This document shows, piece by piece, positions 21,935-35,669 of a stretch of DNA of 41,208 nucleotides. The translations under genes and the position numbers were made by a program. A model generated the notes under the pieces. The model worked only from the letters and a program-made list of their open reading frames with translations, had not been told where the DNA came from and did no database searches. The DNA comes from Nitrosopumilales archaeon (GTDB lineage: Archaea; Thermoproteota; Nitrososphaeria; Nitrososphaerales; Nitrosopumilaceae), in NCBI GenBank assembly GCA_900299125.1, contig OMIR01000078.1, positions 1 through 41,208 on the forward strand, written 5' to 3'. Positions within the stretch are counted from its first letter, which is position 1, and every line of letters begins with the position of its first letter.

Positions 21935-22789
21935 TTATCCGTATGACTCGTACTTTACGTCAAAGCTTCCGTCTGGGCGCTTGTTTCGTTCTGTGACAAA
22001 TCCTTTTGCCTCCAGATAGTCCATACAACCATCAATTGTTCCCTGCCAACCGCAAATATAGAATGCTGTATTCTGTGGGGTGACTTTTTCACCAATCATT
22101 TGTTCTAATGGAGATGGTGAACCGTCCTTAGTTCTAAGAAATGTTTCAACTCTTCCAGTTTGACCGCTCCAAGAGCGATTAAACCATTCTTGTGGACGAC
22201 TAATTGCAGCTCGATACCTAAAGTTCCATTTGTCGCGTCCTTTCTCTACGCTTTCCATTTCTAGATCAGTAAAGAGTTCTTTGTAGCTTAATTCATCTAT
22301 GTAACTAGCACCGTGAAGAATTACTATTTCCCGTTTGTCTCCGATTGCATGAAGATGTTGAGCAAAACTCACAAACGGCGCAATTCCAGTTCCTCCACCT
22401 AAACAAACTATTCTTCTCTCATCTTTTTGCCCGTTGGGTAAAGCTTCTTGGATTTGAAGAGCAGCACCTGTAGGTTTAATCCATGAAACTTCGTCACCTT
22501 CTTTAGCATTGAATAATTGTGTAGTCAGCCTTCCAGGTAGTGGTTTTCTTACCCATCGTATTACTAATTCGATGTATTTTTTATTTTCTGGATGTGAAGC
22601 AATCGAATAAGCTCTTCGAATGACCTTTCCCTCACTTGGTACATTCATCCCAATTGTTAAGAATTGCCCTGCTTTGTAATCTGGGATAATTCCGTCATTT
22701 GGAACTAGGCGAAATATTGCTAAATCCTCTTTTAATAATTGAATATAGGTTATGGTTGCTTTATTTTCTACTACCACAGCAAAACCCAT
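21935..22789 (-). CDS. Ferredoxin-NADP+ reductase family flavoprotein
   Basis: The 284-residue protein has the FAD-binding motif RRAYSIAS (about residues 58-65), the NAD(P)-binding motif GGGTGIAPFVSFA (about 128-140) and the C-terminal FYICGWQGTIDGCMDYL block. It belongs to the plant/bacterial FNR superfamily and probably passes electrons between NAD(P)H and ferredoxin. The 4Fe-4S ferredoxin at 10857 is a possible partner, by inference only. The ATG at 22789 follows an AT-rich TATA-like AATATTTAA about 20 nt upstream. Confidence 0.9.
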   Translation of the reverse strand: MGFAVVVENKATITYIQLLKEDLAIFRLVPNDGIIPDYKAGQFLTIGMNVPSEGKVIRRAYSIASHPENKKYIELVIRWVRKPLPGRLTTQLFNAKEGDEVSWIKPTGAALQIQEALPNGQKDERRIVCLGGGTGIAPFVSFAQHLHAIGDKREIVILHGASYIDELSYKELFTDLEMESVEKGRDKWNFRYRAAISRPQEWFNRSWSGQTGRVETFLRTKDGSPSPLEQMIGEKVTPQNTAFYICGWQGTIDGCMDYLEAKGFVTERNKRPDGSFDVKYESYG

Positions 22790-34281: not shown

Positions 34282-34414
34282 ATTGTTAATTGGAGTTGGT
34301 TTTACTTAATTTTTCATTTAAGAGTTTAAGTTTATCAAGGTAATAGAAATTATCGTATGAAATCTAGTGTTTTATTGTAAAAAATCACATATAATTTTAA
34401 ATATAAAAAATTCG

Positions 34415-34427
34415 TTTTAATATTAAT
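34415..34427 (+). promoter_or_regulatory. TATA box for the unassigned structured RNA
   Basis: TTTTAATATTAAT is centred near 34421, about 26 nt before a predicted start near 34447, which precedes the RNA fold at 34461. A second TATA-like run occurs at 34395-34410. Confidence 0.5.
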
Positions 34428-34460
34428 GCGGAAAGTTGTAAAATCCAACAAATAATCCGC

Positions 34461-34549
34461 GCGTGGCTCAGTAGAACTTTGGTGTATATGAACGAATTTT
34501 CGTTATAAATTGAGAGGTTTTCTCTCACGTTCTACGTCTGGGGCCACGC
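34461..34549 (+). ncRNA. Candidate structured non-coding RNA of unknown family
   Basis: This GC-rich island stands in a very AT-rich gap. Bases 34461-34469 pair with 34541-34549 (9 bp, including one U-G that favours the plus strand). Bases 34471-34477 pair with 34529-34535 (GTAGAAC / GTTCTAC). The internal loop is one base against five. Two hairpins fill the apex: AACGA / TCGTT (34491-34504) and TGAGAG / CTCTCA (34511-34527). There is no T-arm or anticodon, so it is not a tRNA. A TATA box lies upstream and TTTT follows at about 34559-34563. Nothing else is seen in the flanking gap 34282-34646 except promoters. Confidence 0.65.
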
Positions 34550-34615
34550 CTAGAATTAATTTTAGAAAAATTATGTTATTTGTGTAATGTTTGTCTCCAA
34601 AACGATAATCAAAAC

Positions 34616-34626
34616 TTAAATTAAAA
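34616..34626 (+). promoter_or_regulatory. TATA box of corA
   Basis: TTAAATTAAAA is centred about 26 nt before the corA TTG (34647). This implies that corA has its own leaderless start, separate from the upstream RNA. Confidence 0.55.
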
Positions 34627-34646
34627 TTCATTCAGGTTAAGCTGAT

Positions 34647-35669
34647 TTGAAAAAAGAATTATTCCTTTCAAGATTGTCACATTTGAGAAGAAATCCTCAA
34701 CCTACAGATATTCTTCAAAGTAAAATTGAAACTGTCCAAGGAAATGGATTTACTTGGACAGATATTCAAAATCCTGATAGGAAAGAAATTGATAAACTAG
34801 GACAAATGTATAATTTCAACTCCTTGAATTTGGATGATTCAATTTCAAAGATTCAACTCGCAAAAATTGACAACTATGACGATCACTCTTTTATTATTTT
34901 ACACTTTCCTCCACTAGCCCTCAAGCGCGGAATGTCACGATTTAATCAGTTATCTGTATTCATTGGAAAAGATTATTTGGTCACAATACATTATGGAGAA
35001 TTAAAACCACTAGTCGAAATGGTGAATCACTGTAAAAATGACTCTCAATATCGTAACGACTTTCTTGGTAAATCTTCTGGTTTTCTATTGTACAAAATTG
35101 TTGATACTCTGGTTGATGATTTATTGCATACCTTACGCAGAATTGTAGAGAATCTAGATGAAATAGAAGATGATGTTTTTGATGAAAATAAATCTACACC
35201 AAAAAAGATCTCATTACTAAGACGCGAAATTACCATACTCCGAAGAATAGTTCATCCACTTCGAAAAACAGTTTTGGAAACTTCAAAGAATACACAACGA
35301 TTTTCTAATCCTGATGAAGATTTAGTAATTCATTTTGATGATGTAATTGATCATATTGACAAAGTGGCTGAAACATTAGATGAAGCAAAAGAAACAATGG
35401 AAATTTACAAAGATACTGATTTCATGCTTTCAACTGAAAAATCTAATAAAATACTGGCAACCCTTACCATAATATTCACTCTTACAATCCCTCCAACTGT
35501 AGTTGGAGCAATCTATGGAATGAATGTCAATCTTCCTGGGGGAATAATAACTGGAAATTGGAGTTTTCTTGGAGAATATACTACACTGATAGTCATGATA
35601 ATCATATCCTTATTGCCCTCTGCTTTGATGTTTCTATACTTCTACAAGAAAAAATGGTTAGCTGACTAG
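34647..35669 (+). CDS. corA: CorA-family Mg2+/divalent cation channel
   Basis: The 340-residue protein has the soluble alpha/beta N-terminal domain, a long stalk helix (about 150-270, rich in Glu, Asp and Lys) and two C-terminal membrane helices. The first ends in the pore signature YGMN (about residue 290-293). CorA pentamers admit Mg2+. The start is TTG with GGTTAAG-like sequence upstream. The stop overlaps by 4 nt a small convergent gene. The C-terminus FYKKKWLAD is basic, as usual. Confidence 0.94.
   Translation: MKKELFLSRLSHLRRNPQPTDILQSKIETVQGNGFTWTDIQNPDRKEIDKLGQMYNFNSLNLDDSISKIQLAKIDNYDDHSFIILHFPPLALKRGMSRFNQLSVFIGKDYLVTIHYGELKPLVEMVNHCKNDSQYRNDFLGKSSGFLLYKIVDTLVDDLLHTLRRIVENLDEIEDDVFDENKSTPKKISLLRREITILRRIVHPLRKTVLETSKNTQRFSNPDEDLVIHFDDVIDHIDKVAETLDEAKETMEIYKDTDFMLSTEKSNKILATLTIIFTLTIPPTVVGAIYGMNVNLPGGIITGNWSFLGEYTTLIVMIIISLLPSALMFLYFYKKKWLAD

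Follow-up and report, generated by a model that had tools for sequence, protein, structure and literature searches.

Among the literature excerpts available to us, the nearest published case to the RNA described here is sRNA154 of Methanosarcina mazei, a proposed dual-function sRNA with a leaderless 20-aa sORF, whose small protein is reported as highly conserved in Methanosarcina and whose RNA regulates nitrogen genes (PMC11456600). From what those excerpts report, the likeness lies in an archaeal small RNA with a leaderless small ORF (here a predicted one) as its 5' end, but the present RNA has 8–10 codons specifying an unconserved peptide, followed by a covarying three-way junction. Another structured marine-archaeal RNA without assignment is Tan1, a 229-nt non-coding RNA of marine group II Euryarchaeota (PMC5069720). 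As far as its description was available, Tan1 differs in stemming from other archaea and in that no ORF is mentioned, the two being compared by description and not by sequence.

Two further kinds of RNA combine a short reading frame with structure. In leader-peptide attenuators, which include leaderless short ORFs of mycobacteria, the act of translation may outweigh the product, and structured RNA directly follows a short ORF as it does here; in contrast to such leaders, the next ORF at the present loci is mostly convergent (53 of 71) and no amino acid is common to all ORFs after position 1. The structured tmRNA likewise contains a frame some ten codons long, whereas the RNA studied here has an AUG at its inferred 5' end, an unconserved peptide and no tmRNA or other Rfam match. 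Leaderless ORFs, dual-function RNAs and leader peptides are thus known components; to our knowledge, no known system joins an autonomous structured RNA with an ORF that is conserved in length and free in content. Searches of an open-licence library listed no report of this RNA, and little on regulatory RNAs of Nitrosopumilaceae.

A structured RNA with covarying stems

The window, a 41,208-nt stretch of a Nitrosopumilales genome, carries between taw1 and corA a structured core at positions 34461–34549, preceded by a promoter and a short ORF. The features of the locus are as follows.

34397..34403, + strand: TATA box TTAAATA of the RNA gene, from sequence, 29 nt upstream of the ATG
34425..34425, + strand: inferred transcription start, the purine before the ATG, from TATA spacing (leaderless or 1-nt leader)
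34426..34455, + strand: nine-codon ORF ATG CGG AAA GTT GTA AAA TCC AAC AAA TAA (MRKVVKSNK*), overlapping hairpin P0
34456..34460, + strand: spacer linking the stop codon to P1; its length is 5 nt in the window and 3–5 nt in 127 of 128 copies
34461..34469, + strand: P1 5' strand (9-bp stem), from fold and covariation
34471..34477, + strand: P2 5' strand (7-bp stem), from fold and covariation
34491..34504, + strand: P3 hairpin, from fold; variable, with strong covariation among relatives
34512..34526, + strand: P4 hairpin, from alignment; pentaloop here G-U-U-U-U
34529..34535, + strand: P2 3' strand, from fold and covariation
34536..34540, + strand: 3' side of the P1/P2 internal loop (1x5), from fold
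34541..34550, + strand: P1 3' strand and the next C, which is present in all 99 rows of alignment A6

The core has a minimum free energy of −32.4 kcal/mol (z −4.9), with none of 200 shuffles equally stable, confirming the 9-bp stem, 1x5 loop, 7-bp stem and two apical hairpins proposed by an earlier sequence-only reading of this DNA. Unusual stability extends to the inferred transcript at 34425–34560 (z −4.84). Among copies, the P1/P2 loop has one base on its 5' side and usually five on its 3' side. P4 is the most conserved hairpin of the core, its pentaloop being G-N-A-A-U in most relatives with the G and the U present in 99 of 99 copies.

In alignment A7, comprising 89 distinct copies, both-sided changes were found in 26 of 30 pairs (17.3 in shuffles, 6–14 in slid controls), and double-change cells numbered 337 as against 22–77 in slid controls and a mean of 70.9 in 500 shuffles, all of which stayed lower than the real alignment; 96.0% of the cells were paired. 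The other alignments gave both-sided changes in 6 of 30 pairs (A3, 17 rows; shuffles 2.0, slid 1–2), 23 of 30 (A4, 71 rows; shuffles 12.5, slid 5–13) and 22 of 30 (A6, 99 rows; shuffles 12.6, slid 5–15). Further pair types lay above shuffles in A4, A6 and A7 (0 of 500 shuffles as high) and showed no excess in A3, the first small alignment (15 vs 14.8). A4, A6 and A7 were aligned to a covariance model and so lean towards structure; the slid controls were computed on those alignments as well. Both long stems thus show compensatory changes across relatives, a check that the sequence-only reading had named, and with covariation at 26 of 30 pairs among 89 distinct copies the fold is not a chance one; that this is a real structured-RNA gene is close to certain.

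The RNA was not assignable to any family searched for. Rfam 15 at the gathering threshold returned only tRNAs across the whole window and none on the core; at E ≤ 10 the core region gave two chance matches elsewhere and none on the core, and 11 divergent relatives at E ≤ 3 likewise gave two chance matches elsewhere and none on the core. The impression that no recognised RNA family is present here was therefore borne out by the covariance search. ARAGORN made no tRNA or tmRNA call at 34461–34549, in agreement with the reported absence of tRNA arms, and Rfam gave no match to either on the core (window only). RNase P RNA was rejected since RF00373 has no match in the window and the same genome carries it on contig C82. 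Archaeal H/ACA guide RNAs resemble the core in having a long stem with an internal loop; here, by contrast, the loop is 1x5, a conserved ANA is absent and there is an extra junction. The hint of such a guide that had been seen in an AGA was not upheld, as 11 of 128 copies have an ANA within the 7 nt that follow the core, where shuffling predicts about 48, and the pocket has a single base on its 5' side and so is not two-sided.

Distribution within Nitrosopumilaceae

In a blastn search of 61 genomes, 15 of the 16 further members of the source genome's genus gave strong matches (E ≤ 3.8e-10), the best match outside the genus having an E of 0.017. Covariance model R1, built from 17 distinct copies, matched at E ≤ 1 in 199 of 250 genomes of Nitrosopumilaceae, spanning 16 of 22 genera and often matching a genome twice, with every listed match of full length; conservation in relatives, another of the checks named beforehand, is thereby established. 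The matches included genome G012, which blastn had missed, and a second copy in the genome of the window itself (contig C95:30630–30726 of G000). Genome G135 likewise has two copies, both on contig C1 (cores at 22432–22527 and 690204–690297). Model R2, built from 99 copies, matched at E ≤ 0.1 in 208 of 400 genomes of the order (18 of 66 genera), all 208 of them in Nitrosopumilaceae; as the family search comprised 250 genomes, at least 150 of these 400 came from other families. At E ≤ 0.01 the same model matched 159 of 300 genomes of the class, every one in Nitrosopumilaceae, and model R3 at E ≤ 1 matched none of 25 genomes from 16 other families. These searches indicate an RNA gene that is confined to one archaeal family, Nitrosopumilaceae.

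Within the family, searches with R2 or R3 gave no match in G020 (genus g5), G023 (g8), G029 (g14) and G017 (g2), and genus g11 gave weak matches only (E 0.0017 and 0.92, R3). Viral contigs had no matches to one exact pattern. Of the 80 pattern-scan loci listed, 77 match the model, the three without model support (L161, L170 and L179) coming from unrelated MAGs. Tandem copies of the gene, about 300 nt apart and each with its own TATA box and ORF (9 and 8 codons), occur in genus g16 (genome G271, L249:1501–1584 and 1807–1892). The RNA is also carried by MAGs named Nitrososphaeraceae (L111, L137); the ORF peptide of L137 is identical to that of copies in Nitrosarchaeum MAGs, and the Nitrososphaeraceae names may therefore be wrong.

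A promoter-proximal ORF of fixed length

The sequence-only reading missed the 5' part of the gene, an ORF with a hairpin at 34426–34455. In the upstream DNA of 71 copies a TATA box is followed about 29 nt on by an ATG, then by a stop codon just 5' of the core. A script run on 128 distinct copies (after removal of exact duplicates and of 4 copies close to a contig end), which sought start codons 27–31 nt after the TATA 7-mer without selection on ORF length, found TTAAATA, ATAAATA or TTATATA 28–30 nt upstream of the start codon in all 128, and A or G directly before it in 119. The promoter TATA box of the window is accordingly TTAAATA at 34397–34403, further upstream than the box earlier placed at 34415–34427. 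Protein ORFs of these genomes likewise have a TATA-to-start peak at 28–30 nt; upstream of 752 ORFs of at least 120 aa, TATA 7-mers occurred 31 times at 27–31 nt and 18 times at 32–59 nt. Judging from this spacing, the transcript would begin at the AUG or one base before it, i.e., it would be leaderless.

The ORF has 9 codons in 119 copies, 8 in eight and 12 in one (L060), starting with ATG in 126 and with GTG and TTG in one each, and ending in TAA (77), TAG (33) or TGA (18), these counts not being independent of discovery since the ORF was first noticed in copies of the 128-copy set. Internal in-frame stops are absent from all 70 unique 9-codon ORFs, of which 56 and 19 contain stops in the other two frames. 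New copies came from 27 matches, of which 3 were cut by contig ends and 24 read; three of the latter (L236, L237 and L238) had been used before, leaving 21; among these, L241 repeats an earlier ORF exactly. All 21 carry an ORF of 8–10 codons (9 codons in 16, 8 in three, 10 in two) when a TATA-to-start distance of 26–32 nt is allowed and, among several starts, one giving 8–10 codons is taken. Starts lie 26–29 nt after the TATA box and include GTG and TTG, the ORF ends 0–4 nt before the core, and the copies cover genera g2, g7, g10, g16 and g17, which were absent from the coded genomes used earlier. Under dinucleotide shuffling the chance of such a stop is about 0.12 (mean over all 24 copies); the per-copy chances were not multiplied because the copies are related. 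On a quick tree of the core only (about 95 columns, 3 duplicate rows left out), the minimum number of changes is 23 for the stop codon, 9 for ORF length and 4 for the start codon.

The 12-codon ORF belongs to L060:1501–1593, where the stop apparently became TAT and the frame runs into P1; four copies are present in its genome, G086. Two g11 relatives, L263 and L264, have no proper stop or proper 9-codon ORF, carry TTGCAAAAATC 5' of the core in both cases and have P4 loops GCAAU and GCAGU. The ORF may have been lost or replaced in g11. Stop-codon readthrough was rejected as an explanation, since the stop lies 3, 4 or 5 nt from the core in different copies, so that the core falls in every reading frame.

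The bases of the ORF also form hairpin P0, with a mean z of −2.76 over 76 distinct ORFs compared with −0.02 over 126 downstream control segments, and this hairpin is under selection. Among the 77 unique ORFs of the discovery set there are 68 peptides, and 85 distinct peptides are known once the others are added. Between nearest pairs with at most 3 differences, 15 of 77 changed codons were synonymous (0.19), against a neutral 0.24 (0.15–0.34) obtained by placing the same changes at random; with at most 5 differences the figure was 15 of 96, just below the neutral range (0.23; 0.16–0.31). As the synonymous fraction is not above neutral, there is no purifying selection on the amino acids, if anything the reverse. 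After position 1 no residue is common to all 85 peptides, which retain some bias in the form of a C-terminal Asp in 47 and a second residue that is Ser, Pro or Arg in 66. The peptide conservation expected of a dual-function sRNA was hence not found among the 85 distinct peptides, a comparison that concerns conservation and not function. Attenuation by one amino acid was also rejected, the commonest residue, Lys, being present in 64 of 85 peptides and none in all after position 1. Taken together, these comparisons show conservation of start, frame, length, stop and hairpin, with a free peptide.

Genomic context

By mechanical ORF calls at 71 loci, the next downstream ORF is convergent at 53 and shares the strand of the RNA gene at 17; one locus has none. 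At 34 loci this neighbour encodes a protein of some 145 aa that has no Pfam match and looks secreted by eye; at 12 it is corA on the same strand, including the window, where corA lies 97 nt downstream, and at 8 a DUF1246/DUF1297 protein, with others in the remaining loci. Where the neighbour is the ~145-aa protein, an SDR dehydrogenase gene is often found upstream on the opposite strand and a TFB gene is often near. At L064 and 33 other loci the end of this convergent gene falls anywhere from 26 nt within the core to 15 nt past its end, so the 3' ends of both transcripts probably overlap.

Because the downstream gene varies, the RNA gene is not the leader of one fixed gene; no single downstream gene on the same strand, as a riboswitch or attenuator would have, was found across the 71 loci. 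A cis-regulatory leader of corA could draw on the 12 loci with corA next on the same strand. However, it is largely refuted by context and has almost no probability left, given the 53 convergent neighbours, the unrelated ~145-aa protein in 34 loci and the DUF1246/DUF1297 protein in 8, and given that corA has a TTAAAT box of its own, 31 nt upstream of a presumed TTG start (region 34616–34647 of the window). This box matches the TATA box previously noted at 34616, and its distance suggests that corA too may be leaderless. The related proposal of a free RNA rather than a corA riboswitch holds as regards a gene of its own and a variable context, but the free transcript is still a prediction from the DNA. 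A downstream T-run, also proposed, is real as T-richness but, across relatives, hardly commoner than in the AT-rich sequence 5' of the promoter (95 vs 85 of 128 copies); an intrinsic terminator formed by the T-run was dropped on these counts.

Proposed function and alternative explanations

We tentatively favour a trans-acting RNA gated by the passage of a ribosome over a content-free ORF, a reading to which we give somewhat less than even chances. A fuller version, in which an autonomous archaeal RNA has its fold switched by a ribosome on a fixed-length, content-free ORF and serves as a trans-acting translation sensor, is possible though doubtful. Transcription, action in trans, gating and output are what we infer from genome sequence, and their parts differ in strength: the ORF is probably translated and, if it is, gating would be nearly an even call. 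The free-standing gene would be transcribed from its own TATA promoter into an RNA of about 125–135 nt, having an AUG at or one base from its 5' end, then 8–10 codons and a stop that can also fold as P0, and, 0–5 nt after the stop, the 95-nt three-way junction (P1, the 1x5 loop, P2 and hairpins P3 and P4), which would be the effector acting in trans. A ribosome initiating at the 5' AUG would melt P0. Once at the stop codon, its leading edge would lie over most of the P1 5' strand, which starts 0–5 nt downstream, so that P1 and the junction could not close meanwhile. Ribosomes cover about 9–11 nt beyond the A-site codon, and it is this footprint, together with a fold starting 0–5 nt after the stop, from which the gated fold is proposed. 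The RNA would thus be folded when free and open when translated, and would thereby report, or respond to, the state of translation.

Several observations speak against gating. P0 constrains the same bases and could account for part of the regularity of the ORF, the peptides are not wholly random (C-terminal Asp and the position-2 bias), the weak g11 relatives lack a proper stop, L060 has a 12-codon ORF, and the further pair types in A3 did not exceed shuffles. Selection on P0, the lack of selection on amino acids, a variability by codon position that is not coding-like and the g11 relatives without an ORF would all fit an ordinary structured non-coding RNA in which the AUG is part of a start motif, the stop part of a hairpin domain, and nothing is translated. 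Such an RNA is nevertheless improbable, since GTG and TTG substitute for ATG, the three stops interchange, length changes by whole codons, and none of 70 unique ORFs has an in-frame stop where the other frames have many. Conservation of the ORF, with subgroup motifs that recur (MPKDIIPID, MSLV-KS--), could instead point to a micropeptide gene whose product is the 8–10-aa peptide and whose junction is a stabilising 3' UTR, yet 85 distinct peptides and the absence of purifying selection on amino acids make this very unlikely.

The main rival to gating that also accounts for a conserved ORF with a free peptide is translation-coupled protection, in which a ribosome on the mini-ORF shields the RNA from FttA termination or 5' decay and the junction is an ordinary trans RNA. 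Ribosomes counter FttA-dependent termination. FttA itself is described as the factor of factor-dependent termination in archaea (PMC11616081). The position of the ORF at the inferred 5' end would suit protection, but P0 near that end might already shield the RNA and the narrow 0–5 nt between stop and P1 would not be needed; we regard protection as unlikely. Conservation of the promoter and of a minimal ORF, often in two copies, would also be expected of an abundant leaderless mini-mRNA acting as a decoy that ties up initiator tRNA or ribosomes when energy is limiting; it would leave the detailed conservation of the three-way junction unexplained, and we give it very little weight.

The RNA is present in 199 of 250 genomes of the family, often in two copies, and is therefore likely to be important to the cell. 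Under the gating reading, an ORF kept in length and free in product, joined to a conserved fold and to no fixed downstream gene, points to an RNA that reads the ribosome. Major ammonia oxidisers of the ocean belong to the Nitrosopumilaceae. If true, the gating reading would thus give the family of the marine ammonia-oxidising archaea a regulatory RNA of a new kind.
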